Positions 20,755 through 60,473 of a DNA stretch of 64,000 nucleotides are shown in pieces. The notes under the pieces are model-generated. The model made no database searches and had not been told where the DNA came from. It was given only the letters and a program-made list of their open reading frames with translations. The stretch is from Acanthochlamys bracteata (Eukaryota > Streptophyta > Magnoliopsida > Pandanales > Velloziaceae). The stretch is from contig CM034141.1 in NCBI GenBank assembly GCA_019914995.1, positions 6,488,001 to 6,552,000 of the forward strand, given 5' to 3'. The position numbers and the translations under genes are program-made. Every line of letters begins with the position of its first letter. Position 1 is the stretch's first letter.

Positions 20755-23700
20755 ATGGGCGCATTAGCTGCTTCCGCGCTCAAATGGATTCCAGAGGACG
20801 ATCTCCTCTTGAAGAATGCCGTTGAGGTAAATTATTTTGTTTTGATTTTAAGTTCACTGTCGTTGAAATCGTTCGTTTTTTATGAAATTGTAGCTTTTCT
20901 CGGTGCTGAATTCGTTGTGTTGATGATTTGCTTGTGTTTGAGTATGAAATATTTGTAGGGAATTATATTAAGCTTGTGTTAGTGATGATTGAAGGTTGAG
21001 ATGAACTGGGTGATTGGAATCGTTTGTACATGCGGAACTTTGGTTCCTAATCATTTGATTTGAACATAAACATCTGTGGGGTTAGTTTTCGAATAGTAGG
21101 TGGTAGATGTTAGTTAATTTCTCCTAATTACTGTGGTAGAATGTAGTTTTTTCTGTAAATGCAATGTGTACTTTGGTGTTTATGTGATTGATTTATTTAG
21201 GTTTTTTTATAATTTGTTTTATTTAGATTTTTCTTGTTTATGATTGTATTCCTTCATCTTACACCTAAATTGTCAGCATGTTGTAATTGAACTTTGTGAA
21301 TCGGGGTTTAATGAGATACCACCTAAATTGCGAAAACACTTAACTGTTCGTCAAAATTGAGTTCCGTGTTAGGACTAAATAATTATTCAACCTGAGAAAA
21401 CTGATGTCTAGAGAAGTCAGTTTTAAGGTCCTCCATTGATATCTGCACATGAAGTCCAAGCATGTTCTTAAATTTTGCGGGAGTTAGAGAGAGTGTATTC
21501 TTTGTCCTGGAAAGTTGTTCTAGATAAGTAGGATGATAAGTTTGCTAGGGGTGGTGATTTCTACTGACTTGATTTTGGATTGCCTAGTTCGTGTTACTTG
21601 CTGATGCTATGTTGTTGATTATGATGATTTTGTATGTGGAGTAAGCCATCAGATGATTTTATCTTTGTGACTTACTCTTAGTTATTGGCTGCATTAAACC
21701 ATGCCTTCTTCTCTTGTTTTTTCTTCAGGCTGGTGCTTCATTAGAGTCTTTAGCTAAAGGTGCTGTGCGTTTTTCTTGTTGGTTTACTTTTAAGGAGCTA
21801 CAAGACCGTTGGCGTGCGCTTCTCTATGACCCTCATACTCCAACCGAGGTATCTGCTAGAATTGTTGAACTTGAATCTGAATTAACTGTCCCGAATCCTT
21901 CCAAGACAATTAGACCTGTAGCAATAAACGCAAAAGACTGTCTTTCTGGGAAAAGGAAAGGGGATAGCTTGCGTAGCCATTACTATTCTATGCGAAAAAG
22001 AGTGTGCAGTGATCCCCATTCGCATGATCTTGCCTATACCATGCAAGTAAACCCACTTCATGTTGACCATGATGATGCATGTGGACAGCATTTACAGTAT
22101 CAAACAAACTACGCAGACATTAGTTGTGCACCATTTCCACCTCTCTTGTGCCATTATAAGAATCTGGTTATGGGCTGTAATAGACAGCATAACGTTCAAC
22201 TAGGGAGACTGAGAACTTCTGATGCCAATTGCAATTTCACTGAGCAGCCATTTCTTGTTGGTTATGCTGAAAATGAGCTTCCAAATGATTTAATGAACCA
22301 GGATAGTCTATATGGGGATGCCCACAACATCATTCCATCTACGGATAAAACAGGAGAGAACAACATGAACCAACACTTTGAGCATGACTATGCGCAAATA
22401 CATGTATCCCCAGTTCTGGGCAATGATATTCTTCCACCAAATTCCTGTCCAAATGCACATGGAATTGGATCACCTCATGCATCTAAGGAAGTTAATGGGG
22501 AAGCAATTACCATAGGTGATATTGATTCAGCTAACGACAATTATGAGAATCATTGTCCTGAATATGTAAGAAACGATAACTCAAGCCTACAGGTTTCTAG
22601 ATGTACTACTTCCTCACACCAATTTGACTATCCATCTTCTGCAGCAGAGGAGGGAAGAAAGTGATAATGTTCCCCCTCCAGCTATGTCGATTGTGCCGCA
22701 CTTTGTAGATAAGGGTCCAATGATATGTACTTCAACTATAATTCCAATTAATGATATCAAGAATTTGGACCCACCAGGACATGATGGTGCCACTTCAGAG
22801 TCCAAAGTGGTTGATGAGATGCCTGCTACTGCCTTCGAGCATTCTGATAATGTTCTTGATGATTTAGATGATGATATTATGTTGGATTTAGATTTTCCAG
22901 TTTCTGGGCTTCTCAACATAGATGAGGAAGGTGGTGCTGGTAGGTCATGCTTCGAGAATATGAAGGATATCTTGCTGAATTCCCCTACTGATAAGTATGA
23001 AGATGATGCTCCTGATCTAAGTTATTTTAGAGATGCAAACCCTTGCCTTGCGGCCCCAGATATGACATGCTCCTCAAGATCAGATGTCAGGAATGATCCA
23101 ATTCACTCTTTCAATCATGATGAGCATAGAGTTTCATTCTCAGAAGAGAAGCAGCCTTCAACTCATCTAGATGCATTCCCAAGTGTGGGGGCATCTGAGT
23201 GTATCACGATTTGTGTACTGAGCACAGAGGATACCGAAATTCCATGCAACGATGATGTTGTTCTACCGGTACCTTCTAGTTTGGAATGGTTTTCTGCCTC
23301 TACCCTAGCAACTGGGCCGTCATGCACTTACAATAAACTTCCTTCAATGACGAGAGAAGAGCAGGAAGTAAATATACAATCTCATGGGTTCCCAATGAGA
23401 GGTGGATCAACAGTGTTATCAACAGGCCTGACACACTCAAACCACAATCATGGAGCGGAAGCAGAGCTGTTTCAGAAGGAATTCATGAATAAAAGAAAGT
23501 CATGTATGTCAAAACAAGTTGTTAGAATCGAAGAAAATATTAAAGGTTCGAGAGATAACGGCAATTCATCACAAGATCATACTGTACAAAGATGGAACTC
23601 TGATATGTGCGAGAAGGAAGCATATGTGACAGCACATGCAAAAAAGGTAAAATTTGCAGATCCGGTCTCCACTTCATCAATGTCAGATAATGAAGAGCCA

Positions 23701-36734: not shown

Positions 36735-39638
36735 ATCATGGGATGACAATTTATTTTCAAGGCGCCAATCTTCTGGTTCTTGCATGTGGACCTTCTCTTC
36801 CAGTAATACTGCAAGTCTTGTGATGATATCAGCACCAAATTCTTCCTATTATTCCTTATGCTACGAGAAAACTTTTCAATATGTACATGAGACCTTCTCA
36901 AACTGATTCTTATACTTTTCGTAGAGTGCAAAACCTGCAGTCTGCCACACAGATTTATTGATTATTGAATATACCAACAATGGCAACTAGGAATACGTTG
37001 GAGATAAATACTAACCTCTAAGAAGGGCGTTAAAGCATGAGTAGTTGACCTGCTTGCAGGGATCTTATTGAGGAAACCTTGCAAGCCAAGCCCATCCTCC
37101 ATCCTTCTTTTAGACCATGTAGATTCACCACATCAGCAACCGCTGTCTGCAGAAGCAAACATTTGCTTATATATAAGACAGTTTGCTAGAGGATGCTAGC
37201 AGCTTCTAGAAGTGTATCAGGTGAGAGAAGATAGGATGCTCATATAATAACAAAATAAGTACCTGAACCAAAGCTCCATGAAGTTTCATGTAGCCCTCCA
37301 AACGTTGCAGGTAGAAAGCAGGGTTTTCAGACTTCCAATTTTCTTCTCAATATCCTATCTTGTAGTAAAGCTTGGTCTTAGCCTGCTAGAAGACATTTAA
37401 TCAACATGGAATGAGAAACATGCCAAAGAACTAGAGAACAGATAACAATGCTCCTAATGCTCCATTGATCTCACTATCAAAAGGAAGGAGAACTACCAGA
37501 ACACTAAAACTTAAAGCAGCAACAATTTCACAAAATGACAGTAATCAAGCAGGTGTTTTAGAAAATTAAGGATTGTATAAGATATTCCTATAGTAGTTGT
37601 TGTGTAAGCAGAAAGTGAAACATATGAAGTTGGGTAGTCAGGAATTTCAGCTTAGATGGCCAAATATGCTCAATAAACAAAATAGCTCCAACAACCTCAG
37701 AAACAGATATATAAACTAGCACCTAAAGAGAATGAACCACTAAAACATACATCTTCCTCTGATATTGCTTATCCAGTATGCTATCCCTTTGCAGTCTTGC
37801 TTCTATTATTTTTTCAAATTGAAAGATAGCTGAATGCAATCTTTCACTCTCACTCTTTTGATCCCACTCAAGTGCAGATAATTTATTCCTGATATCCTCC
37901 TGATTTCAAATGATAGCATCAGAAAAACATACTATTAGAACCTTTCGCACCTACACAGTAAACTATGAAAAAAAGAACATCTTACCTTGACTTTAAAGTG
38001 ATGCTCCAATCCATTCTCAAATAAAAACCCCCTCCTCTGGGCTCATCTTCGTCATCAAAGGAGCATGAGAAACTTGGAAATGATCTTCAATAGTCAACTC
38101 CATATAAGATAAGTGAGAAAATTAGTATTAAATGTATGACTATATAGTTCTCAGTCCCCCTCCAATAAAATTACTACTGCTGACTTCCTAAGGAGGGTTT
38201 GCTTCCTATTTTATTCAAAGTATGTAGATTACCATTGGTTATGATTTCTTAACCATATCTTGACCTCATAGATGCTGTATAGAAGTACTAACCAAAACCA
38301 CCCAAGCTCTCAGCCTTTGTCATGAATGACTCTATCCTATATCTGTCCATTGGATGGACTCCATTAGATAGTGAGATTATATTCCCAGGCAAAAATGTTA
38401 ATAAGACATGCTAAACTCTGATCAGCTGTACCTGTGCACATCTAATTAGTTGTTTAATTGCATATAACCTTTTGAAAATTGTCTACAGTACACAGAACTA
38501 CATAAAAGATCAGCCCACATATCTAAATGATCTGCAGTAAATGCACAACACTTGCATACAATTCTCAAATTAGACAATCAACAGGTCACTCCCTAAAGTG
38601 TTTTTGATACATTTGACATAAATTAATCAGTAGGCCTCTTTCTTTTGCTAACAACCGCTCTAAAAGAAGCAATGCTCCTAGGTATTGGGTCAAAGATTGC
38701 TCATATGTTTTGTCCAGGAAAAAGAAAAACAGTTTTAAAAAATTATAGTATGAAGAGACATTTTTAAAGAAAATACTTCATAATTGATAAGCAGGTCAAG
38801 AAACAATGAAAGGATCCAAAGAGTTGTTTCTTGAAAAGTAATAGTAAAGTCCGCTAGTAATCTGCAGCTTACAACTATAAGTGCATGTGAATCACCATCA
38901 CTATATCAAACTGTGAATCCACAAAAACTTGTTCCAGAATATATTCAGAGATTTTAACCCAGAGCCCATACGAAACCTACAAGAAAACCTTGTACCAGTA
39001 GTTTAAGTATCATCATCATCACTCCAGCTATCTAAACTATCAGAAACGCTCATTATAGATGGCCTCCCACACTCTACCATCATTGCTCCTTCATGATGTT
39101 TCCCTGAGAAAAAGTTCACAAGAACAGAAGGAATTTCGAAAGCATTAGAAAAACAAGTATGCTAACTAATATAGCATGTCTATGAGAAAACATGATACTC
39201 TGCTAACAACTAAACCAATCCCTCCTCTTAAAGTAACGTATAATCAACAAAACTTATCAAATAATCATTATAATCGAGACAAAAAAACGCATCAAATGGA
39301 TCACGCTAACTTAAGATTTTCTTAAAAAATGTAGAAAAGGTTAAGACAAAAAATGGTTTACTGAACAATGATTACCTTCGAGTCGAGAACGGTGCGCGCG
39401 AAGAAGTTGATTGAAGCTTCGCTTCCAACGACTGCTGCAGTTCGGAGAAAAGATCATCTACAGTCCTCCAAGTAGGTTCTGGATCAACTGAAGCGACCAC
39501 CGGCGGCGATCTACTCCGACATTTAGGGCTTAATTGAAGAAACCCCTGCTTTTCAATTAAAGTAATAACTTCGAATAGTTCTACAAATTCAAACAAAAAT
39601 TTGAAACAAATTGCAGAATTAAAATCGAACGTACCCAT
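36735..39638 (-). pseudogene. GLE1 (mRNA export factor) pseudogene with internal deletion
   Basis: Minus-strand relic of GLE1, the nuclear-pore factor that with IP6 activates DEAD-box helicases for mRNA export. In gene order: an N-terminal part with DPEPTWRTVDDLFSELQQSL near 39400-39490; an acidic piece MSVSDSLDSWSDDDD near 39015-39060; FENGLEHHFKVK near 37985-38020; EDIRNKLSALEWDQKSESE, then EARLQRDSILDKQYQRKM near 37750-37900; LQRLEGYMKLHGALVQ near 37262-37310; VNLHGLKEGW near 37095-37130 and ARF just after; TAGFALYEKYKNQFEK near 36895-36945; and the C-terminal LAVLLEEKVHMQEPEDWRLE near 36755-36815. At least three frame breaks occur, for example in the G-run near 38033 and in the 37080-37100 segment. 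The charged coiled-coil middle and the first half of the GLE1 domain are absent. Introns remain, so it is a decayed duplicate and not a retrocopy. Confidence 0.8.
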
Positions 39639-40535
39639 GGTTAATTCATTCGTGAATAAACTTGCCGGGATAGGGAAGGAGGTATGCTGTTGGCATTTCA
39701 GAAGAAGAGCCAGCGACTGTTTTTTCAACTTTCGAAATTGAAATCAACCGTCCATTGCCGATTTTCGTGTGTTTATGCTGTGGTTACTAATAGTTAATTT
39801 TTAAAGATCATCAAGGCTCGAAGAGCAATGTGTTAAATTAATTGCTTAATAGTAAGCAACTCAAACGGGCTTTTACTCAAATGAATTACAAATTTACCCC
39901 TCCGCTCGGGTGATCTGCGAATGGTAACTGGTAAGTACCTCGCGCTTAATTATAGAGCAGCCGTGATGATTCGAAGATTATAGTTGCGATCGTGGCAATG
40001 ATCCTTAGAGACGGAGGATTTATAAAATGAAACTTTTTTAAAATTAAAAATATATTTAATTTTTTATAAAAATAATTTTATTTTATTTTATTTTATAAAA
40101 AAATAAAAATATATAATAAAAAATTTTATTTTGTAAAATTTTTTATATTTTTATATATTTATAAAATATGTATTAAAAAATATAATAAAAAAATTAAAAA
40201 AATGTTTTTCAAATGGTGTGCCAAAAGCACCCTTAATTAATTAGTCCCATCTTGGCGAAAGAGTTTATGCACAGTGTTAGTATAAAGAAACTAATTAGTA
40301 AGAATTAGCACCTGTCGCAAAAACATTAATAGGACCTGTTTCCTTCCTGTGTAGTGTAGCTATAAAATTACCAGTAGTTGACCACGTGGTCATTCCAGTC
40401 AGGGATAATTATTATTATATCGATAAAAATTATCTAGACTTCTTTTGCAATGAAAGAAATTCATTAAGTGAAAATTAACAGCAATTCCTAACCTAAACGA
40501 CAACCCTATTCAATCTCTCTGTTTAGATTTTCTTT
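39639..40535. other. Spacer between GLE1 relic and tandem duplication
   Basis: No coding exons seen. It contains an AT-rich family A repeat at about 40015-40235 and otherwise unique sequence leading to the left edge of the 6.1-kb duplication. Confidence 0.5.
40015..40235. repeat. AT-rich dispersed repeat, family A
   Basis: Core of A-runs and T-runs with TTATATATTTATAAAATATG and TATTAAAAAATATAATAAA, ending near CCAAAAGCACCC, like the other family A copies. Boundaries approximate. Confidence 0.45.
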
Positions 40536-41028
40536 TATATTTCATTCATTCCAGCCCGACAATAAAGACAAAAGCACATAATCTACAAACAGAAATCCAA
40601 TAAACAGGAGACGAAGACAACAACGTAATAAGAGAGTATTAACATTATAAATCCATGCAAGATATACCTTGTGCTGATTGACCCAAAAACCAAAAATAGA
40701 AATATGTATCTGAGAAGGAAAATTCTCCTATGCCACTATATTTCACTTCATTAAAAAAATATATCTGAATTTATCTTTAATATCATATTGGAAAACAGGA
40801 AAAAAAAACAACAGGAAAACAAAATTGGATACTGTACAACGTTTGCATGATCACCTCCCTTTTTTTTTATTTGATCACGCCAATGTGAATCATTTCTGTG
40901 ATCCAACAAAGAAAAGGAAAAATAACAAAGGTAACAAATATTAAACTGGTTTGTAAAGTATTTACTGAAAAAATGACCCTGCTGGAAGGGTAAGAAAATG
41001 GCTAACATTGGACCAAATGAGCAGCTGT

Positions 41029-44000
41029 TCAATATGTTTGGTTGAAATGAAGGAAACCGGATGGTTCTGGAGCTGCCATTCTTGACATAGACGCTTGACT
41101 ACTGAAAAACAAACAAGTAGACCAAACATATTGGTATTAACAACTTGTAATATACCGCATGATAACTGAACGGAGCCTCCTTAGAAAAACTTTACCTATT
41201 TAACATGTACGACGTCGGGATGGGTTTCATGGCCGCAACATCATTCATGCTGTGATCTTGAGACATCAAGGGCCAAAGAACTTCAAAGAGAAGGGACAGA
41301 AAGTTCAGAGCAAGCAGTGCCAGGTTAGCAACAGACACGATATATTCACATGACTCAAATCAAATTAATGATCCACAAACATAGTGTTCCTAGAGTAATA
41401 CAAAAGAAGTACTATTTCACCTTAGAATCCCAGGAAACTAAATGTTTAATATTGGCATATCGTAGAAGTGATATCATGAAAGAAAGATGGAATTCAAAAC
41501 TCTGCTAATTTTTGTAGCACCAGTGGAGAGATTGCATAGCTTTAAGTAAGGAGGTAAAGTAATAATTTTCCTTAAAATGTTGAACTCCACTTCAAAACTT
41601 AACGACTTACAACTAGAATTTGATCTTGTCATTCAGCAAAAGATTTGTCAAGATATTAAAGCTAGAAAGAAACTTACATGATGGTGTCGCATGACTCTGA
41701 AATCCGGAGCACAATAGAAGTTCCTGTTTTTTATTTCAAAATGAGATTCTCAGTTTGAGAGATAACATGTCTGCACATCTACATGTGTTCTTGGGCATAT
41801 GCAAAACAGAAAAACTAAAACTCACCTTCCCGTGTTGTGTGAGATCATTTGCACCTGCAGAATCATATCACGTGTACACACCAGTTAGACCTATATGTAT
41901 GGTAACCACGCATGCCAACTTACAAATATAAAAACCAGAAGTACTTAAGCAGGTTGCAGAACAAGCTACTCGTTATAAGTGCTGAAAACTGTGTGCATAT
42001 ACACACAAACATGCACAGCTAGAGAAACATGCATGTACATACCCAAAAGCAAGAGAAAGCATGAGAGAGTTAATTCCTCAAAGATGTAGGATAATGACTG
42101 AATAAGTATGAAAGGTATCTCCTAACATCTCATGAAAAATATCATCTCACAACCAAAATGACATCCTCAATTATCAGAGAGAATTTGAACATACCTGCTT
42201 CAGAAACACTTGGCTTGACTGCCAGTGTTAAGCCAAGAAAGTTGTCGTCTGATTCAGTTTCAAAGTCCCACAAATTAAGTTCAAGCTTTGGATTTGCTGC
42301 TGAAAGATTAAAACCAAAAGCAAACGTATGTAATACGTCTTCACTAAGAAAGCAACTATTATGTGAACAGTATCCTTCCAAACTGACTTCACAAAACTGA
42401 AAAAGTAAGAATCATTAGTTCACATCTTACCCTTCTGACTTCCTGTAAGTTCAAAATGAGTTTGAAGTGGAAATGGAACCCATGTACCCACCTGAAAAAA
42501 AGTTAGCCATAGACATATATAGAAGAATCATTATATAAACTGTTCAAGAGTCAGGGGAGAGAATAACAAGTAAGAGATTAATTACAAGAAAGAAGGGATG
42601 CTGCAGAGCCTGCTCAGCTGTTGGTCTCTTTTGTGGATCCCAAGAGCAAAGTTGCTAAATACAAATTATGTACAAAATCCATGAGATACAAGCTGTCACA
42701 TCAATAGATAAAAAATAAAAAAATCGTTAAAATGAAAATATTTTTGACATACAAGAATCAGGTCAATCGCTTCCAAGCTAGCATTGGGTATAAGTTCTGC
42801 GAGATTGGCTGCTGGAAACTGTAAAAGGAAATGCAGTGAGAAGAAACCATAAATCTGGAAGGTAATCAATCTGAAACTTACCTGGAAAAGCTTAAAATTG
42901 ATTGATCGGGAATAAATCATTCCTTCAGGCCAGACTGTGCTATCTGGGGTCCCAAGAACAGAGCATATTTTGCAAATCTGATCAGTCTCACTGCATGGCA
43001 ACAACATAATATGAAATGAAAGATTTTGGTACAATAAGAATACTGAAACCCTATAGTAAGAGTGTTTCATATGAACAGAATTAGTACAGCCATTTACCTT
43101 TCACCAGGAAAAAGAGGAGATAAAGTAAAAAGCTCTGCTATAATTGCACCAATAGCCCACATGTCTGCAGAGAAATACTAGAAGTCAGATGCTAGCGTTC
43201 AAGTAGCTCTTTATGGTCCTTGAGGAATTGGTACAACACATACCAATTGCAGGTGTATAGAATGAAGATTGCAGCAGCACCTCTGGAGCTCGGTACCTGG
43301 ACAAGATGACAGTTCCTTAGATACGTGTAGCAGCAGATAACACATCCTCAATTCCTCGGCATTCTATTCAGCTATTTATATATTTACTGAGGAAGAAATT
43401 GACTCACCATCTAGTGGAAACATAATCTGTATATGGAGGCTGCGACATTACCTCCCTCACCAATCCAAAGTCAGCAACTTTGATGATGTCATTTGTCACT
43501 AAGAGATTCTCTTCAAAAGTGAAAATTGCTATAGAATTTAGATACAGAAAATTCAGTTAAGCCAAATCCATAGGACACAGTAAGATTACCTGGTTTCAGA
43601 TCCCTATGGAAATAGCCACTCCCATGCATATAAGCAAGAGCCTGCAGAACTTGAGTCATTAAGTTTCGTATCTCTGACTCAGTGAATGCCCTTTGTCGAT
43701 CTCTCATAACTTGATATAGATTATATTCCTGAGTGCATATCCAAAGTCAGCGTAAGCTTCAGAGGGGGCATATAGCATTTTATAATTCTTACATCATGGT
43801 GATGCTGAACATCCAGAATTGTTTACTCTCCGTAAACGAATTGAAACAAAATTTGATGCCAGATAAAAGCGCATGTCAAACACCAAAAAGATCAAGCACT
43901 GATAGCAAGTAGTAGGGGTTGGATCCAACAGCAAGCAACCACAGCATGCATTACATTTTAGCACACGATATATACGTAATGGTGATGGTTTACGTGTGCG

Positions 44001-44768
44001 TTTTTAGCTTACTTTATAATCCATTGGTCTTGCACAATTCACATTCCCAATTAATGTGCATCAGAATACAACAGCCATGTTGCAAATACTAGTTCACTAA
44101 AAATAATCATCATTGATAGCTAGTCAAAGTTTCCTCCAGTTAACATAAAACAGCATTCTCACTTTCCATTTACTAAATGTAGAGATGTATTCCATATGAT
44201 TATTAGGAAGCTAGAGAAATACCCACCATGTATTCAAAAATAAAGAAGAGCTCGTGATTTTCCTGACAACCTCTCTCAACTTGATGATGTTCGGATGATT
44301 CAATTTACAAAGAGACTGCACGACAACAAAACATTGTTCCTATCAATACAAATTATATCACAAATGAATGCACTACTTGTCAGATCCTTAATCTTTGATG
44401 ATACCTAATACCTTAACTTCCTGCAGATTCATACATTCTTCCCAATAGTAAAACTTTCTCCTCATTTTCTTTACGGCAACCTGAAATTGTGTGATGATTA
44501 AAAATATAAAGAGAAACATAATTGATCTACTTCTACAGGAAGTTATCAAAAGAATTTAACGGAAAAAAAGGAAACTACAAAATACAAACTTACGATCTCC
44601 AACGTTTCTAAATTGAGGGCCTTATATACACATCCACAAGTTCCATCTCCGATCTCCTTCAACAATCTATACCTGAATTTCACATAAAGATCATCAACCA
44701 CACAATCTTTTTAAAAGCAACAAATAACCAAAAATTTAATCAATTAATCTAATTACTTACTTCTCCAT
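41029..44768 (-). pseudogene. MHK: MHK/CDKF-like Ser/Thr protein kinase, copy 1 (frameshift in exon 4)
   Basis: Homologue of Arabidopsis MHK, a plant RCK/MAK-type kinase related to CDKs and MAPKs. Seventeen coding exons on the minus strand (high to low): 44768-44761, 44672-44594, 44480-44412, 44315-44227, 43728-43590, 43510-43408, 43306-43254, 43164-43098, 42990-42882, 42818-42753, 42654-42586, 42491-42431, 42299-42195, 41854-41826, 41723-41678, 41280-41196, 41101-41029. Motifs: [10 protein letters not shown]-loop, VAVKKM catalytic lysine, [13 protein letters not shown], the TDY activation motif, [12 protein letters not shown] and LELNLWDF. Exon 4 has 89 bases where copy 2 has 90: one base is missing in the C-run near 44261, so translation leaves frame near residue 70 and stops soon after. 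It may be a true null allele or a sequence error. An intact reading would be about 416 residues. Confidence 0.85.
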
Positions 44769-45275
44769 TATTCTTAATTCCCCAAAAAAGAAATTACTAG
44801 CTCCACACTATCTCACTGAACTGGCAACTAAATCCTAACACATCAATCCATAATAGATATGGATTCCATTCTACTAACTAGTAGACAGAGACCGCTCGTA
44901 GCAGCGAACGAGATGTTCGAATCTTCAAAAATTGTTCGATCAAATTCCGCCTGAAACAAAATCGTCATTGCTTGATTCTTCAGCTTCTTTAAAGCTGCGA
45001 TCTAAAATCAATCAATATCATCTGCATAAAAAAAAAATATCCAAATTATTGAATCAAACAGGATTGGGATTTGATCGATCTAAAGAAATGGAGAAAGATT
45101 TAGAAAGATAAGTACGGACCGCGTCCCCTTAACCGATGAAAGCTGCCTGCTGACCTCCGTCCGTCGCCGTTTATGGCTTTGATTTCCAAACTCCCCCCTT
45201 CGTTCCCTTCTTTCTTTCGTTTCGTTGTTCTCTATAGCTTTCTCTCGAGATCAAAGGGGAAGTTATACAAGCGGT

Positions 45276-45281
45276 CACGTG
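45276..45281. promoter_or_regulatory. G-box (CACGTG) upstream of MHK copy 1
   Basis: Palindromic CACGTG about 510 bases upstream of the ATG, in the probable promoter or leader region. G-boxes bind bZIP and bHLH factors. Duplicated in the second unit. Function inferred only. Confidence 0.35.
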
Positions 45282-45849
45282 CAAAAGGCGTGCTTTCATA
45301 TATATATTTTTAATTTAATTTATGAGAAATTATTAATACATAATTTTTTGGAAAGTTAGAAGAAAAATTGCCGAAAGATTAGACGTATATCGCCGAAAGA
45401 TTTGGTTTTAAATATGTGGTGATGAAGAATATTTTTTTTTTAGAAACTTTATATTGATTAAAAACTGTATTTATTGACTGAGTGGTTTAAGTTAGTTAGA
45501 TTGTTCTTTTTACAGAAAAATCTAAGATTAATTTCTTAAAATTTGTTTTTTTTGTTTGGATCCATCGAAGAGAAAATGAAAATTTTTTATTGATGAGGAT
45601 TAGTATGAGATTTGTTTAACTTTTTTATGAGAGAGAGAGGGTGAGAGAGAAAAATTAAAATAATAATTGCGATGATGGGGATAGCTAACCGTCTAGATAA
45701 AGCCAATGCAAGATATCCATATCTGATTATAAAGTAGGGAATTTTGGAGATATTCTATTTCTATTGGGCTTTGAACCAGTTGGCCCATACATCATACAGG
45801 CCTGATTTATTGCGCTCCAATTCATCTGTACGTGCATGTCTTTGCAACC

Positions 45850-46075
45850 CAACTTTTAAATTTTAATTTTTTAATATATATTTTATAAATATATAAAATA
45901 TATTTAAAATTTTTAAAATTATAAAAAAGTTTTACATAATAAAATTTTTTATTATATATTTTTATTGTTCTTTTAAAAATAAAAAAATAAAACTTATTTT
46001 TAAAAAATATAAAAACTTATTTATTCTAAAAAAAATTTATTTGATTAGCACTTTCAAACCATCCGCTCAGTGAAT
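45850..46075. repeat. AT-rich family A element in duplication unit 1
   Basis: Best-preserved family A copy, with TTTTTAATATATATTTTATA in the left arm and a complementary A-rich right arm, ending near CACTTTCAAACCATCC. Its duplicate lies at about 51970-52195. Confidence 0.5.
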
Positions 46076-46097
46076 GCGGAAGTTCCGTAGCTATTCT

Positions 46098-46612
46098 TAG
46101 GAGTGGCAAATTTCAACCCGACCTGAGACCGATCCGAAAAAGTTAGGTTCGGGTCAACATTTAGTCGGGTTCGGATCGACCCGAAAATGACTCGAAATTT
46201 TAAACGGACTCGGATTGACCCGTTTAACTATTTATATAACATATATTACTTAATAATTAGAAAATAATAGCAAAAAATTTGAATTTAATTTGTATATGTA
46301 TATATATATATTAATTTATCTTAATTTAACTAATTTTTATTTAATTTATAAAATTTGTCAAAATTAATATTTTTCTTTTTAAATATATCATAATTAATAA
46401 TTTATATATATTATTATTAAAAATTAATATTTATTATTTTTATTTTTATTATTATATGAGTCGATCCGAATTTAATCCGGTTATAAATAGGTTGGATTAG
46501 GGTTAATAATTTTAACCCATATAAATAAATAGATCGGATTAGAATTAACAAATTTTGACCCGATTATTATATGATCGAACCGAATGACTCGGGAACTCAA
46601 TTGCCACCTCTA
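46098..46612. mobile_element. Non-autonomous hAT-type MITE (unit 1)
   Basis: 515-base element with imperfect terminal inverted repeats, TAGGAGTGGCAA at the left and TTGCCACCTCTA at the right. It is flanked by 8-base direct repeats GCTATTCT (46090-46097) and GCTACTCT (46613-46620) with one mismatch, as expected for a hAT target site duplication. Both subterminal regions hold GGGTTCGG, GACCCG and GATCCGAA-like motifs. No transposase frame. It predates the tandem duplication because both units carry it. Confidence 0.8.
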
Positions 46613-47147
46613 GCTACTCTATAGTCTGGTTTCTCTTGAACTTTTTAAAATATATTTCATTCATTCCAGCCCGACAATAAAGACAAAAGCACATAATCTA
46701 CAAACAGAAATCCAATAAACAGGAGACGAAGACAACAACGTAATAAGAGAGTATTAACATTATAAATCCATGCAAGATATACCTTGTGCTGATTGACCCA
46801 AAAACCAAAAAAATAGAAATATGTATCTGAGAAGGAAAATTCTCCTATGCCACTATATTTCACTTCATTAAAAAAATATATCTGAATTTATCTTTAATAT
46901 CATATTGGAAAACAGGAAAAAAAAAAACAACAGGAAAACAAAATTGGATACTGTACAACGTTTGCATGATCACCTCCCTTTTTTTTTATTTGATCACGCC
47001 AATGTGAATCATTTCTGTGATCCAACAAAGAAAAGGAAAAATAACAAAGGTAACAAATATTAAACTGGTTTGTAAAGTATTTACTGAAAAAATGACCCTG
47101 CTGGAAGGGTAAGAAAATGGCTAACATTGGACCAAATGAGCAGCTGT

Positions 47148-50100
47148 TCAATATGTTTGGTTGAAATGAAGGAAACCGGATGGTTCTGGAGCTGCCATTC
47201 TTGACATAGACGCTTGACTACTGAAAAACAAACAAGTAGACCAAACATATTGGTATTAACAACTGTAACATACCGCATGATAACTGAACGGAGCCTCCTT
47301 AGAAAAACTTTACCTATTTAACATGTACGACGTCGGGATGGGTTTCATGGCCGCAACATCATTCATGCTGTGATCTTGAGACATCAAGGGCCAAAGAACT
47401 TCAAAGAGAAGGGACAGAAAGTTCAGAGCAAGCAGTGCCAGGTTAGCAACAGACACGATATATTCACATGACTCAAATCAAATTAATGATCCACAAACAT
47501 AGTGTTCCTAGAGTAATACAAAAGAAGTACTATTTCACCTTAGAATCCCAGGAAACTAAATGTTTAATATTGGCATATCGTAGAAGTGATATCATGAAAG
47601 AAAGATGGAATTCAAAACTCTGCTAATTTTTGTAGCACCAGTGGAGAGATTGCATAGCTTTAAGTAAGGAGGTAAAGTAATAATTTTCCTTAAAATGTTG
47701 AACTCCACTTCAAAACTTAACGACTTACAACTAGAATTTGATCTTGTCATTCAGCAAAAGATTTGTCAAGATATTAAAGCTAGAAAGAAACTTACATGAT
47801 GGTGTCGCATGACTCTGAAATCGGAGCACAATAGAAGTTCCTGTTTTTTTATTTCAAAATGAGATTCTCAGTTTGAGAGATAACATGTCTGCACATCTAC
47901 ATGTGTTCTTGGGCATATGCAAAACAGAAAAACTAAAACTCACCTTCCCGTGTTGTGTGAGATCATTTGCACCTGCAGAATCATATCACGTGTACACACC
48001 AGTTAGACCTATATGTATGGTAACCACGCATGCCAACTTACAAATATAAAAACCAGAAGTACTTAAGCAGGTTGCAGAACAAGCTACTCGTTATAAGTGC
48101 TGAAAACTGTGTGCATATACACACAAACATGCACAGCTAGAGAAACATGCATGTACATACCCAAAAGCAAGAGAAAGCATGAGAGAGTTAATTCCTCAAA
48201 GATGTAGGATAATGACTGAATAAGTATGAAAGGTATCTCCTAACATCTCATGAAAAAATATCATCTCACAACCAAAATGACATCCTCAATTATCAGAGAG
48301 AATTTGAACATACCTGCTTCAGAAACACTTGGCTTGACTGCCAGTGTTAAGCCAAGAAAGTTGTCGTCTGATTCAGTTTCAAAGTCCCACAAATTAAGTT
48401 CAAGCTTTGGATTTGCTGCTGAAAGATTAAAACCAAAAGCAAACGTATGTAATACGTCTTCACTAAGAAAGCAACTATTATGTGAACAGTATCCTTCCAA
48501 ACTGACTTCACAAAACTGAAAAAGTAAGAATCATTAGTTCACATCTTACCCTTCTGACTTCCTGTAAGTTCAAAATGAGTTTGAAGTGGAAATGGAACCC
48601 ATGTACCCACCTGAAAAAAAGTTAGCCATAGACATATATAGAAGAATCATTATATAAACTGTTCAAGAGTCAGGGGAGAGAATAACAAGTAAGAGATTAA
48701 TTACAAGAAAGAAGGGATGCTGCAGAGCCTGCTCAGCTGTTGGTCTCTTTTGTGGATCCCAAGAGCAAAGTTGCTAAATACAAATTATGTACAAAATCCA
48801 TGAGATACAAGCTGTCACATCAATAGATAAAAAATAAAAAAATCGTTAAAATGAAAATATTTTTTGACATACAAGAATCAGGTCAATCGCTTCCAAGCTA
48901 GCATTGGGTATAAGTTCTGCGAGATTGGCTGCTGGAAACTGTAAAAGGAAATGCAGTGAGAAGAAACCATAAATCTGGAAGGTAATCAATCTGAAACTTA
49001 CCTGGAAAAGCTTAAAATTGATTGATCGGGAATAAATCATTCCTTCAGGCCAGACTGTGCTATCTGGGGTCCCAAGAACAGAGCATATTTTGCAAATCTG
49101 ATCAGTCTCACTGCATGGCAACAACATAATATGAAATGAAAGATTTTGGTACAATAAGAATACTGAAACCCTATAGTAAGAGTGTTTCATATGAACAGAA
49201 TTAGTACAGCCATTTACCTTTCACCAGGAAAAAGAGGAGATAAAGTAAAAAGCTCTGCTATAATTGCACCAATAGCCCACATGTCTGCAGAGAAATACTA
49301 GAAGTCAGATGCTAGCGTTCAAGTAGCTCTTTATGGTCCTTGAGGAATTGGTACAACACATACCAATTGCAGGTGTATAGAATGAAGATTGCAGCAGCAC
49401 CTCTGGAGCTCGGTACCTGGACAAGATGACAGTTCCTTAGATCGTGTAGCAGCAGATAACACATCCTCAATTCCTCGGCATTCTATTCAGCTATTTATAT
49501 ATTTACTGAGGAAGAAATTGACTCACCATCTAGTGGAAACATAATCTGTATATGGAGGCTGCGACATTACCTCCCTCACCAATCCAAAGTCAGCAACTTT
49601 GATGATGTCATTTGTCACTAAGAGATTCTCTTCAAAAGTGAAAATTGCTATAGAATTTAGATACAGAAAATTCAGTTAAGCCAAATCCATAGGACACAGT
49701 AAGATTACCTGGTTTCAGATCCCTATGGAAATAGCCACTCCCATGCATATAAGCAAGAGCCTGCAGAACTTGAGTCATTAAGTTTCGTATCTCTGACTCA
49801 GTGAATGCCCTTTGTCGATCTCTCATAACTTGATATAGATTATATTCCTGAGTGCATATCCAAAGTCAGCGTAAGCTTCAGAGGGGGCATATAGCATTTT
49901 ATAATTCTTACATCATGGTGATGCTGAACATCCAGAATTGTTTACTCTCCGTAAACGAATTGAAACAAAATTTGATGCCAGATAACAAGCGCATGTCAAA
50001 CACCAAAAAAGATCAAGCACTGATAGCAAGTAGTAGGGGGTTGGATCCAACAGCAAGCAACCACAGCATGCATTACATTTTAGCACACGATATATACGTA

Positions 50101-50891
50101 ATGGTGATGGTTTACGTGTGCGTTTTTAGCTTACTTTATAATCCATTGGTCTTGCACAATTCACATTCCCAATTAATGTGCATCAGAATACAACAGCCAT
50201 GTTGCAAATACTAGTTCACGAAAATAATCATCATTGATAGCTAGTCAAAAGTTCCCTCCAGTTAACATAAAACAGCATTCTCACTTTCCATTTACTAAAT
50301 GTAGAGATGTATTCCATATGATTATTAGGAAGCTAGAGAAATACCCACCATGTATTCAAAAATAAAGAAGAGCTCGTGATTTTCCCTGACAACCTCTCTC
50401 AACTTGATGATGTTCGGATGATTCAATTTACAAAGAGACTGCACGACAACAAAACATTGTTCCTATCAATACAAATTATATCACAAATGAATGCACTACT
50501 TGTCAGATCCTTAATCTTTGATGATACCTAATACCTTAACTTCCTGCAGATTCATACATTCTTCCCAATAGTAAAACTTTCTCCTCATTTTCTTTACGGC
50601 AACCTGAAATTGTGTGATGATTAAAAATATAAAGAGAAACATAATTGATCTACTTCTACAGGAAGTTATCAAAAGAATTTAACGGAAAAAAAGGAAACTA
50701 CAAAATACAAACTTACGATCTCCAACGTTTCTAAATTGAGGGCCTTATATACACATCCACAAGTTCCATCTCCGATCTCCTTCAACAATCTATACCTGAA
50801 TTTCACATAAAGATCATCAACCACACAATCTTTTTAAAAGCAACAAATAACCAAAAATTTAATCAATTAATCTAATTACTTACTTCTCCAT
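47148..50891 (-). CDS. MHK: MHK/CDKF-like Ser/Thr protein kinase, copy 2 (C-terminal frameshift)
   Basis: Same 17-exon structure as copy 1, shifted by about 6119-6123 bases; the start codon is in the 8-base exon 50891-50884. Exon 4 (50349-50438, 90 bases) is in frame and reads [15 protein letters not shown], so the kinase domain (P-loop, VAVKKM, HRDLKP, DFG, TDY, APE) is complete to about residue 300. Exon 15 (47796-47840) has 45 bases where copy 1 has 46: one C of the pair near 41704 is missing, so the frame changes near residue 356 and stops at the fifth codon of the next exon. The predicted product is about 368 residues instead of 416. The catalytic part could still work. RCK kinases phosphorylate Ser/Thr before proline and are activated at TxY; plant substrates are not deducible here. 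Confidence 0.85.
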
Positions 50892-51397
50892 TATTCTTAA
50901 TTCCCCAAAAAAGAAATTACTAGCTCCACACTATCTCACTGAACTGGCAACTAAATCCTAACACATCAATCCATAATAGATATGGATTCCATTCTACTAA
51001 CTAGTAGACAGAGACCGCTCGTAGCAGCGAACGAGATGTTCGAATCTTCAAAAATTGTTCGATCAAATTCCGCCTGAAACAAAATCGTCATTGCTTGATT
51101 CTTCAGCTTCTTTAAAGCTGCGATCTAAAATCAATCAATATCATCTGCATAAAAAAAAATATCCAAATTATTGAATCAAACAGGATTGGGATTTGATCGA
51201 TCTAAAGAAATGGAGAAAGATTTAGAAAGATAAGTACGGACCGCGTCCCCTTAACCGATGAAAGCTGCCTGCTGACCTCCGTCCGTCGCCGTTTATGGCT
51301 TTGATTTCCAAACTCCCCCCTTCGTTCCCTTCTTTCTTTCGTTTCGTTGTTCTCTATAGCTTTCTCTCGAGATCAAAGGGGAAGTTATACAAGCGGT

Positions 51398-51403
51398 CAC
51401 GTG
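51398..51403. promoter_or_regulatory. G-box (CACGTG) upstream of MHK copy 2
   Basis: Duplicate of the 45276 site in the same promoter context. Function inferred only. Confidence 0.35.
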
Positions 51404-51969
51404 CAAAAGGCGTGCTTTCATATATATATTTTTAATTTAATTTATGAGAAATTATTAATACATAATTTTTTGGAAAGTTAGAAGAAAAATTGCCGAAAGA
51501 TTAGACGTATATCGCCGAAAGATTTGGTTTTAAATATGTGGTGATGAAGAATATCTTTTTTTTTAGAAACTTTATATTGATTAAAAACTGTGTTATTGAC
51601 TGAGTGGTTTAAGTTAGTTAGATTGTTCTTTTTTACAGAAAAATCTAAGATTAATTTCTTAAAATTTGTTTTTTGTTTGGATCCATCGAAGAGAAAATGA
51701 AAATTTTTTATTGATGAGGATTAGTATGAGATTTGTTTAACTTTTTTATGAGAGAGAGAGGGTGAGAGAGAAAAATTAAAATAATAATTGCGATGATGGG
51801 GATAGCTAACCGTCTAGATAAAGCCAATGCAAGATATCCATATCTGATTATAAAGTAGGGAATTTTGGAGATATTCTATTTCTATTGGGCTTTGAACCAG
51901 TTGGCCCATACATCATACAGGCCTGATTTATTGCGCTCCAATTCATCTGTACGTGCATGTCTTTGCAAC

Positions 51970-52195
51970 CCAACTTTTAAATTTTAATTTTTTAATATAT
52001 ATTTTATAAATATATAAAATATATTTAAAATTTTTAAAATTATAAAAAAGTTTTACATAATAAAATTTTTTATTATATATTTTTATTGTTCTTTTAAAAA
52101 TAAAAAAATAAAACTTATTTTTAAAAAAATATAAAAACTTATTTATTCTAAAAAAAATTTATTTGATTAGCACTTTCAAACCATCCGCTCAGTGA
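51970..52195. repeat. AT-rich family A element in duplication unit 2
   Basis: Copy of 45850-46075 carried along in the duplication, with small differences in A-run length. Confidence 0.5.
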
Positions 52196-52219
52196 ATGCG
52201 GAAGTTCCGTAGCTATTCT

Positions 52220-52736
52220 TAGGAGTGGCAAATTTCAACCCGACCTGAGACCGATCCGAAAAAGTTAGGTTCGGGTCAACATTTAGTCGGGTTGGATCGT
52301 AGAAAATGACTTTCGAAAATTTTAAACGGACTCGGATTGACCCGTTTAACTATTTATATAACATATATTACTTAATAATTAGAAAATAATAGCAAAAAAT
52401 TTGAATTTAATTTGTATATGTATATATATATATTAATTTATCTTAATTTAACTAATTTTTATTTAATTTATAAAATTTGTCAAAATTAATATTTTTCTTT
52501 TTAAATATATCATAATTAATAATTTATATATATTATTATTAAAAATTAATATTTATTATTTTTATTTTAATTATTATATGAGTCGATCCGAATTTAATCC
52601 GGTTATAAATAGGTTGGATTAGGGTTAATAATTTTAACCCATATAAATAAATAGATCGGATTAGAATTAACAAATTTTGACCCGATTATTATATGATCGA
52701 ACCGAACTGACTCAGGAACTCGAATTGCCACCTCTA
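52220..52736. mobile_element. Non-autonomous hAT-type MITE (unit 2)
   Basis: Duplicate of the MITE at 46098-46612 with the same terminal inverted repeats and the same flanking 8-mers (52212-52219 and 52737-52744). The region after TTTAGTCGGGTT differs by several substitutions and indels from unit 1, more than the rest of the unit. Confidence 0.75.
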
Positions 52737-52776
52737 GCTACTCTATAGTCTGGTTTCTCTTGAACTTTTTTAAAAT

Positions 52777-53603
52777 AAATGATAGTTTTATCTATTTTAA
52801 AAAATAATTTTTATTTTTTATCTAAAAAAATAAAAATTAATAATAAAAAAATCTTTTTACATAAATTTTTTTTATTTATTAAATTTTTAAATAAATTCTT
52901 TATATACTTATAAAAATACATTAAAAAATAAAAAAATACTAATCAGCTTTTTGAGAAAAGCTTTTCCAAACGACACCGGAAATCAAGAAATTCAAAACCT
53001 TATACAGAGAAACCAACAGAATTACCAAGCCCGGCCCAATAAGACCCGAATAAAGGATTGAATACACTTCAATAACAAGTTCATTATCAGGAAATGTTTA
53101 TCTCGACAATAATTTCAAGTTATCACTATTCTTCTACTAATAAATGTCAGCATAACTCTGAGAAGAACATGTCGTGAGATTTAACTCTTACATTATATTT
53201 CAGAGATGTTTATCATGAATTACCTTTACCAAGCCAAAAAAACAAAAGGCTTACGTTCGTTCCCTTTTTTTTCTCTCCACTTCAGAGTATACAAGGAAAA
53301 AGATAAACCAATTATGTCCAGCATTTCTTCAACACCACTTAACATGATTCTCCAATTTCTCCAAAACTAGCTTCACAGGTGGTGTTGTTTGTTTTTTTTT
53401 CAGGTATTCTACAAAGCTGTATGCAACTTCTTCACAAAAACAATCATGCTTAAAGCATGAGCTCCAAGAGTCCCCCACTTGCTCAAACTTCTTCCAGACC
53501 TTTTTTATCTTTTGTTTTTGTCAATTTCCACTCACCATCGTTTTGCTTTGGCATGTTCTAACAAAACCAGTATTGACACTACTAGACAAAACATAAACAA
53601 AAC
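52777..53603. other. Spacer with AT-rich repeat, cyclin D 3' region
   Basis: An AT-rich family A block occupies about 52780-52990 and ends at CTTTTCCAAACGACACC. The remainder up to 53603 is the likely 3' UTR and downstream region of the minus-strand cyclin gene. No coding exons seen. Confidence 0.5.
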
Positions 53604-56579: not shown

Positions 56580-56767
56580 TGAAACGATTTGAGTGAAAAA
56601 AAAATATGATAAAATTGATAATAATAGTTGATGATGAGTTTACATTCAATAGCTACATATATATAGCTAATCATAAGAGTCTAACTAATAAACATAATCA
56701 ATGTGGGACTAAAGTAATACTAAATGGGCCAAAATAAAATGGGCCTATAAATTTATATAATCTAACA
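56580..56767 (-). repeat. Copia 3' LTR
   Basis: 188 bases, starts TGAAACGATTTGAG and ends TATAATCTAACA on the plus strand (TG...CA). It differs from the other LTR at about 7 positions (3.7%). Confidence 0.95.
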
Positions 56768-56782
56768 CGCCCCCTCAAACTC
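56768..56782 (-). other. Polypurine tract of the copia element
   Basis: On the minus strand GAGTTTGAGGGGGCG directly precedes the 3' LTR, the expected place for plus-strand priming. Confidence 0.75.
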
Positions 56783-59700
56783 ATGGAGGATCAAGCAACA
56801 TGAGTTTGCCCAATAATAGCTGAAATCTCGGTGTAGAATGTGCCTTTGTAAAGAAATCTGCCAGTTGATCAGTTAAAATCACATGTGGTAAGAAAATAAT
56901 GCCTGATAGAAAATGTTCACGAACAAAATGACAATCAATCTCAATGTGTTTCGTCCGTTCATGAAAAACTGGATTGCTTGCAATCTGAATAGCACTTCGA
57001 TTGTCACAGTATAAAGGTGTAGATCCTGTAAGTGTAATGCCCATATCAGACAGCAATCTACGCACATGAATAATCTCTCTAGTAGTAACAGCCATAGCTC
57101 TATACTGCATACTCGTCAGAGAAGAACATGCAACCATCGCCTGTTTTTTACTACGCCACGAGATCAACGAGTCACCAAGAAACAAACAGAAAACTGTAGT
57201 AGAAGTGGTTGGATCACCGCATGATCCGAAAAGGCTCAAGCTCCAAATTTGATGTAGAAGACATAAAAAGTGAGCGAGTAATCGTACTCAAGATATCGAG
57301 AATTCGCGAGAAAGCACTATAATGTACCGATCGAGGTTAGAGACAAACCGACCGACAATACTAATCGCATGAGAAATATCCGACCTCGTCAAACAAAGAT
57401 ATACTGGTCGACCAACTAATCGCTGTTTCTATACTAGGATGTGAGAGCCTCACCGCAGGGGACGACGAAGCTTCACATGAAGCTCCATAGAGTGTCAATT
57501 GTCTTACTATCCGATATATCTTGATCCAATAATATCCGAGGCATACTTTTGTTGAGAAATAAGAATACCTCTATTACCCTGAGCAATCTCCAATCCAAGA
57601 AAATAACGTAAGTGACCAAGATCTTTCATCCAAAATTTGAAGATGTCTTTGAGTTCTTTGCTATTCTCTTTGAATCATCTGTTATAATCATATCATCTAC
57701 ATATAACAATAGAAGTACCCTCCCCTGCGGTGAGGACCATACAAATAAGGAGTGATCCTGAGAACTATGCTGAAAACCTGCCTCTGTAATGGCTCGTCTA
57801 AAACACTCAAACCAAGCTCTAGGAGCCTGTTTGAGTCCATAAATAGCACAACGGCCGACATACATGACCTGGTAGTGTAGAAAGACCTGGGGGAGGCTGC
57901 ATATAAACAATCTCGGATAAAGTACCATGAAGAAATGCATTCTTCACGTCCATCTGATAAAGAGGCCAACGATTGCAAAGAATAACTAATAAAGTACGAA
58001 CTGTGGTTATCTGAGCTACATGAGCAAATGTCTCATCATAATCAATTCCATGCTCCTGAGTAAATCCTCGAGCAACAAGACGAGCCTTATGCCGCTCAAT
58101 AGATCCGTCGGGTTTATATTTGATTTTGAAAACTCATTTACAACTAATAGTCTGAGCTCCCTCTGGAAGTGGGACAACATCCCAAGTACATGTCTCCTGA
58201 AAAGCATGAAACTCCTCTGCTATAGCCTTCTGCCATTCAGGGTACTGAATTGCTTCTTGATAAGAATTGGGCTCTCGAGTAGTGTGTATAGAAGTAAGAA
58301 AAGAATGAAACTGTGAAGAATAAGAGGACAATGTGGCAAAGCCGAACCTATCTGGTGGACCAGAACAATCTGGAGTAAACCGATCTGGTGGTCTGTGAAC
58401 TCGTTGTGACTGACGAGTTTGTGGTGGTGAAGGTGGATGTGAGGGCGGTGATGAAGGTGAAGATAGTGAACTCGAAGTAGAAGAAGAATATGAAGGATTC
58501 TCATGTGCCATCGTCGGAACTATCGTAGAAGGGACTGTACTATTAGAAGAAAGTAAAGGAGTTGGATCAATGGAAACATTAGAACACTAAGTAGATGATG
58601 TAGAAGTATGTGTGTCTGGTGATGTTAAAAATTCGACGTCAGGAGATGTAGAAAAATAAGGTATATTTTTAAGAAATGTGACATGTCGAGAAATACGAAG
58701 ACGACGAGCCAAAGGATCATAACAACGATATCCTTTATGCTCGAAACTAATGCCAAGAAGGACACACTTAGCTGAAGTAGCAGACAGTTTTGTGCGCTCA
58801 GTCGGAGGAAGAAGAACAAAACAAGTACATCCAAAAGTGCGAAGCATGCTATAGTCAGGAGAAGATGAAAAAAGACTCTAATGAGGAGTCTTGCCAGATA
58901 AAACAGATGATGGAGTGATATTGATAAGATTAACTGACGTAAGAATTGCCTCTGCCCAAAAAGTTTGAGGTACAGAATAGGATAGTAAAAGAGCACGAGC
59001 AGTCTCCAAAATGTGGCGATGATTGCGTTCTGCTACTCCATTCTATTCATGAGTGTAAGGACATGACTGCTGAAAAAGGGTACCATGAGACTGTAAGATA
59101 GATCTCATGGTAGATGACAGATACTCACGAGCACAATCAGAACGAAAAATTTTAACTCTACAGTTAAACTGAGTATGGATCATAACGGTGAATCGATTAT
59201 AAATAGAAGGAAGATCCGACCAGGTGCGCGTATGAGATAAACCAAAGTGTAACGAGTGTAATCATCAATAAAACTTACATAATAGAATAGGTGCGGGCCC
59301 CAAATGTCAGAATGAACTAACTCAAAAGGACGTTTGGTTTTAGATAAACTTTTAGGGAAAGGAAGAGTTAAATGTTTTGCCAATTTACAACCTGTACATG
59401 CAGATAGTGGTGAAAAAGGCCCTTTTCCGAAAGCTCCACTTTGAAATAAATTTTTAGTCGAGATTGTAAAATATGACCCAAACGTTTATGCCACAAATCG
59501 TGATAGATGAAATAAAAGAAAGACAACTAATAGTGGAAGGATTAGATAAAAGAATATGAAGATATTCTAAATAATAGAGTCGTCCCTTTCTACGAGCACA
59601 ACCAATCGTTTGGCCAGTATGAGGATCCTTTATATTGCAAGTAATAGAATCAAAAGTAACAATGAATCCACTCTCGCAAAGCTCACGATGGATATAAGAT

Positions 59701-60273
59701 TAAAAGTAATGCTTGGAACATGTAGGACAAAGGGTAAAGTTAGAGTATCTGAAATAAGACATCCAGATTTGGTAATGAGTAATTGAGAACCATCGGCTGT
59801 GTGTAGGGATGAAAAATGTGATGGTAAAGATGTAGTTTTGGATAATAAAGACTCATTCGAAGTCATGTGATGAGAAGCACCAGAATCTAATATCCAAGAA
59901 GAAGACATACCTAGAGAGGCAGAAAAAGCAGATATAGAGGAGCCAACAAATGATGACTGTTGTTGAAACTGGAGCTCTAGTTGAGTAAGACGATACTTAA
60001 TATCTGAAAAATCAGGAGAGATCTGACAATCTGCCGGTGCACTATCAACGATATGTGCTTGAGGATCTTGAGAGCAATTTGAAGAAAAGAAAGCCTTCAC
60101 CTTCATTTGCTCTCGATATTGTAAAAATAAATGTGGATAAAGTTAAAAACAACTATCCACAATATGACCAAATTTGCGACAATGAGAACAAAATATGGTC
60201 ATGCTGATTACAGACTAGACCGAAAAAAAAAAAATTTTAATTTGAAACTTGAGAAAATTTTCAACATCGAATG

Positions 60274-60285
60274 GCTCTGATACCA
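60274..60285 (-). other. Copia primer-binding site (initiator Met tRNA)
   Basis: On the minus strand TGGTATCAGAGC directly follows the 5' LTR. This is the classic plant copia site complementary to the 3' end of initiator methionine tRNA. Confidence 0.9.
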
Positions 60286-60473
60286 TGAAACGAATTGAGA
60301 GAAAAAAAAATATAATAAAATTGATAATAATAGTTGATGATGAGTTTACATTCAATAGCTACATATATATAGCTAATCATAAGAGTCTAACTAATAAATA
60401 TAATTAATGTGGGACTAAAATAATACTAAATGGGCCAAAATAAAATGGGCCTATAAATTCATATAATCTAACA
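60286..60473 (-). repeat. Copia 5' LTR
   Basis: 188 bases, starts TGAAACGAATTGAGAG and ends TATAATCTAACA on the plus strand. It is followed by the GTTAG target duplication. Confidence 0.95.

Follow-up and report, generated by a model that had tools for sequence, protein, structure and literature searches.

A candidate tandem duplication of a kinase gene in Acanthochlamys bracteata

The window analyzed here is a 64,000-nucleotide stretch of the Acanthochlamys bracteata assembly (C16:6488001-6552000; genome 195.5 Mb in 557 contigs, with C16 at 7.2 Mb), and it contains two adjoining direct repeats that each carry a whole kinase gene. Using 21-mer offsets, blastn and the edge sequences, we placed unit 1 at 40536-46650 (6115 bp) and unit 2 at 46651-52775 (6125 bp), with no N between them. 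The 21-mer offsets between the units are 6115-6124 across 40536-46584, and blastn of unit 1 against unit 2 gave 99.33% identity over 6141 aligned columns (9 mismatches, 27 gap openings). An ambiguous TA is present at 40536, 46651 and 52776, so 2 bp are common to the breakpoints, including the internal junction at 46649-46652. Both the layout (two directly adjacent, near-identical units of about 6115 bp) and the sharing of about 2 bases by the outer breakpoints had been described in an original prediction made from the letters of this stretch, and our analysis confirms them. As the breakpoints have 2 bp in common and no more, recombination between flanking repeats was rejected as the cause.

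Each unit holds a whole 17-exon MHK-like kinase gene with its ATG and stop codon, upstream DNA, an AT-rich repeat and a hAT-type miniature inverted-repeat transposable element (MITE). This content had also been predicted, and the promoter listed with it corresponds to upstream DNA read as sequence only, making it a putative promoter. A 2-kb probe from unit 1 matched two places genome-wide, and each flank probe matched one full-length place, in addition to older relatives (70-78%) located on C17 and C18. Whole-genome searches with unit and flank probes found no separate haplotig of the flanks or the locus, and genome searches found no third copy of the unit.

The kinase gene lies on the minus strand of both units (unit 1, 41029-44768; unit 2, 47148-50891), where GT-AG borders allow the 17-exon layout. 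In unit 1, the ATG is at 44768 and the stop codon, at 41031-41029, is read in the exon-17 frame. Exon 4 of unit 1 (44315-44227) is one base short compared with that of unit 2, which is in frame, and this breaks the unit-1 frame within the kinase domain. Exon 15 of unit 2 (47840-47796) is one base short compared with that of unit 1, and this breaks the unit-2 frame near the C-terminus. The joined exons (1317 bases compared per unit) contain zero substitutions and one 1-base deletion per copy.

The unit-2 protein has a complete protein kinase domain (Pfam PF00069, E 4e-71, residues 4-283), with CDK3/CDK2 as its nearest solved structures. We tentatively name it an MHK/MAK-like kinase for its TDY activation loop and EECMNLxEVK motif, a name in which we also follow the original prediction; a paper search found no literature on MHK/At4g13020. 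The protein resembles plant MHK and the MAK-ICK-MOK (RCK) kinases in its CDK-like kinase domain with TDY in the activation loop, and differs from them in that the assembly breaks the frame of both copies. The kinase exons matched these two units at 74-97%, while the best other kinase exon reached 71%, and no close further copy of the gene was present among the 126 whole-genome matches. Since no close further copy was found and both frames are broken, the assembly taken literally would describe a plant without an intact MHK-like gene.

Differences between the units look like consensus errors

An affine alignment of the two units contained 6 substitutions and 29 indel events, the last of which reflects the end chosen when unit 2 was cut. 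By comparison, all pairs of 20 copies of the hAT-type MITE, a subset of 38 further listed loci, differed in their conserved core by 3511 substitutions and 646 indels. The substitution-to-indel ratio between the units is thus reversed about 26-fold relative to the MITE copies (Fisher P 4e-18, an indicative value, as the MITE pairs are non-independent and the two alignments come from different programs).

The positions of the differences are also unusual. After excluding the cluster at 46165-46200 together with the final 6 bp, which removed 6 of the 29 indels, we found that five of the six substitutions have one of the 23 remaining indels no more than 8 bp away, a proximity equaled by 0 of 20000 random placements. 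Fourteen of these 23 indels sit in runs of at least 3 in the longer copy (24.6% of unit-2 bases are in such runs), so the claim that the differences are mostly one-base homopolymer indels was largely right. The one isolated substitution among the six falls where 20 of 20 MITE copies contradict unit 1. Judged from the sequence, the inter-unit differences do not look like mutations and instead resemble consensus errors, and they fit such errors without haplotype-specific single-nucleotide polymorphisms (SNPs).

Unit 1 departs from its repeat families beside the junction

The hAT-type MITE lies at 46098-46612 in unit 1 (TAGGAGTGGCAA...TTGCCACCTCTA, flanked by GCTATTCT / GCTACTCT) and at 52220-52736 in unit 2. 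Its terminal inverted repeats (TIRs) are about 12 bp long, its 8-bp flanking repeats have one mismatch, and 38 further loci at 80-89% identity were found among 40 scored of 1950 candidates. The short TIRs, the 8-bp target repeat and the many short copies identify it as hAT-type, an assignment in which no hAT transposase has been linked to the element. An AT-rich repeat lies beside it at 45855-46063 in unit 1 (approximate limits, read from the sequence and tandem-repeat rows), with its unit-2 counterpart at about 51976-52185.

A second, AT-rich MITE (52762-52977, approximate limits) lies across the right breakpoint, which falls about 13 bp inside it. The end of unit 1 repeats just the first ~13 bp of this element, whose 27 aligned copies elsewhere extend past that point; its remainder is found only past the right end of unit 2. 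The right flank is therefore original and the internal junction derived, a state that is predicted by a real duplication and a false join alike. In all, three AT-rich MITE-like elements occur around or within the unit (40012-40239, 45855-46063 and 52762-52977), and for the first and the third the family runs to dozens of copies.

The copies of these families elsewhere in the genome allowed us to ask which unit deviates at a given site. Along the units, the differences that could be assigned to one copy are few and come from the exons and the MITEs. At 46447, all 20 MITE copies share the unit-2 state. At 46585, 46591 and 46599, the unit-2 state is found in 18, 17 and 17 of the 20 copies, respectively, and not one of the 20 shows the state of unit 1. 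Unit 1 also lacks one base of the T-run at 46642; among 27 copies of the second MITE, 26 match the length seen in unit 2 and the remaining copy is shorter. The final 66 bp of unit 1 before the junction (46585-46650) therefore hold four deviations, each of them on the part of unit 1, where 0.36 would be expected per 70 bp (P 5e-4, a post hoc value for a stretch picked after inspection). The counterpart of this stretch in unit 2, at its right edge, agrees with the repeat family.

The units also differ in a dense cluster (46172-46195 in unit 1, 52294-52316 in unit 2) within the GC-rich inverted repeat (TCGGGT...ACCCGA) of the hAT-type MITE. This cluster, the frameshift in a different exon of each copy and the position of the breakpoint inside the second MITE go beyond what the original prediction had described.

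Control loci and neighbouring sequence

As a control for assembly quality, 71 PPR loci were scored of 906 candidates by a procedure that favours good matches, and one of them is the query itself. Seventy of the 71 had no stop in the matched frame, and the open frames span 491-1079 aa. Six exons of the presumably cyclin-D-like gene that begins some 0.9 kb beyond unit 2 on the right align in frame with its relative on C17, and the first exon of this gene had no Pfam match. A 237-residue adenosylhomocysteinase (SAHH) exon matches the solved plant enzyme 3ond, which we take to be from lupin, without gaps.

The left neighbour gene (37000-38100), presumably augmin-like, was rejected as a clean control, as it is disrupted compared with its C18 relative by an in-frame substitution stop, a 7-bp insertion and two 1-base homopolymer insertions. 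It is probably in the main a decayed duplicate, and its two 1-base insertions could be noise. The right neighbour gene has its older relative at C17:1544927-1547619 and the left one at C18:6342703-6351506 (both 70-78%), on two different chromosomes.

Elsewhere in the window, an MCRS-like gene (PF13325 on the first frame) is read in two different long forward frames that overlap at 22570-22664, possibly through a 1-base error or an unrecognised intron. A Copia-like remnant with a Pol_BBD domain occupies 56609-60459 on the minus strand between 145-bp direct repeats (142 positions matching). This remnant, the MITEs and the structure of the genes are indicative of plant DNA. Rfam gave no match in the window at gathering scores. 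For the haplotig test, 4 of the 557 contigs were sampled as small unplaced contigs. Among the small contigs, C300:1-6000 is part of a high-copy repeat found at 85-90% identity on at least 39 other small contigs, C450:1-6000 has 53.9% GC compared with 36% in the genome window, and the C60 stretch is entirely N and matched nothing when searched.

One locus assembled twice is the preferred explanation

We propose that the near-identity of the units, the error-like spectrum of their differences, the broken frame in each copy and the clustering of unit-1 deviations against the junction reflect a homotype false duplication, in which one locus was assembled twice, and we give this explanation a probability of roughly 0.6. 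The plant genome would then most likely contain the left flank, a single 6.1-kb unit and the right flank. Two assembly paths that share the unit may have stayed unmerged and been placed end to end; these paths were probably overlapping contig ends with a length of about one long read. The gap between them would subsequently have been closed or removed, and thin or ambiguous read support would have left unpolished noise. The main reason for preferring an artefact lies in the junction-side deviations, as reads across a real junction would map uniquely and should have polished out the deviations in the final 66 bp of unit 1. This is an argument and not a proof.

In the parts of the literature consulted here, homotype false duplications are described as often lying at contig boundaries, having about read length and forming tandem copies with a gap between them (Rhie et al. 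2021, PMC8081667), and false duplications as containing more erroneous k-mers (Ko et al. 2022, PMC9516828). The A. bracteata locus resembles the cases in these passages in its two near-identical copies in direct tandem, whose length could be that of one long read, its poor consensus quality and its lack of an allelic SNP pattern. The units adjoin and are 99.3% identical, and whether they represent one locus is the very point at issue.

Several observations weigh against this explanation. The published copies are usually separated by an N gap, most often so and only sometimes with the gap wrongly filled in the portion of PMC9516828 drawn on here (see also PMC8081667), but the junction in A. bracteata has no N. 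No N occurs in the chromosome-scale pieces examined, which leaves gap filling unproven. On the other flank of the junction, the first 156 bp of unit 2 are identical to unit 1. In the dense cluster, far from the junction, it is unit 2 that departs from the MITE family (52294-52316), and unit 1 mostly agrees with it. The closest pair among the 71 PPR loci is 75 kb apart, so the PPR sample contains no tandem copies. Finally, the left neighbour gene is disrupted, so confinement of the noise to the units is unproven, although noise in the units is still far above that in the PPR sample.

A real, essentially undiverged tandem duplication, formed by end joining or template switching at a 2-bp microhomology, is possible but in our judgment doubtful. 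The differences between the units would in that case be leftover consensus errors, because short reads cannot be placed uniquely for polishing in two identical copies, and such ambiguous mapping would account for the higher noise of the units relative to the PPR loci and to the gene on the right. The gapless junction within a 7.2-Mb contig, the TA overlap and the derived internal junction indicated by the right breakpoint are as expected for such an event, and the gapless direct repeat of a whole gene with a 2-bp overlap resembles known young tandem duplications. The locus differs from these in its sequencing-error-like differences and in the deviations piled at one side of the junction. Four deviations stand uncorrected no more than 66 bp from the junction, in a stretch to which spanning reads would map uniquely, and the right-edge stretch of unit 2 agrees with its family, unlike the end of unit 1. 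In addition, essentially no trustworthy substitution exists in 6.1 kb, which would require an extremely young event. End joining had been suggested from the 2-bp overlap, but it is not inferable from this feature, as an arbitrary contig join could give 2 bp by chance. Included in the likelihood we allow a real duplication is a small share for an origin by error-prone break-induced or template-switching replication, which would have placed a cluster of mutations in the new copy, in its final 66-204 bp at the junction (46447, 46585, 46591, 46599 and 46642); we consider this version unlikely. Junction point mutations have been suggested for human rearrangements, in the part of that report used here (PMC4352052).

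The original prediction had left a recent duplication and an assembly artefact side by side, and had named noisy consensus and two uncollapsed haplotypes as sources of the differences. The noisy consensus gains support from the reversed ratio, from the substitutions beside indels and from the frameshifts in both copies without exon substitution. The haplotypes are not supported. If units 1 and 2 were two alleles of one locus (a heterotype false duplication), the layout would be identical to the one observed, and the failure to find a separate haplotig of the flanks is compatible with this. Alleles would, however, be expected to differ mainly by isolated SNPs, and the single isolated substitution is the one contradicted by every MITE copy, so we regard this explanation as very unlikely. 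Least probable of all, to a degree that we consider negligible, is a real duplication in which both copies subsequently decayed into pseudogenes. In its favour, the assembly shows a frameshift in both copies and apparent decay of the left neighbour gene, but the exons have no substitutions, the spectrum is dominated by indels and the listed genome matches include no other close MHK-like gene.

Implications for gene counts

The candidate duplication is probably not a real feature, and we view this locus mainly as a caution for gene counts and pseudogene scans. At this locus, counting genes would suggest a recent kinase expansion and scanning for pseudogenes would yield two broken copies; both results would probably be wrong. 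Two checks that need no reads proved useful: comparing the substitution-to-indel ratio with that of repeat copies from the same genome, and consulting further members of the repeat families to establish which of the two copies is in error and whether such errors are concentrated beside the junction. If the duplication is real, nothing more unusual than a tandem copy of one kinase gene would be involved, perhaps with a dosage effect.

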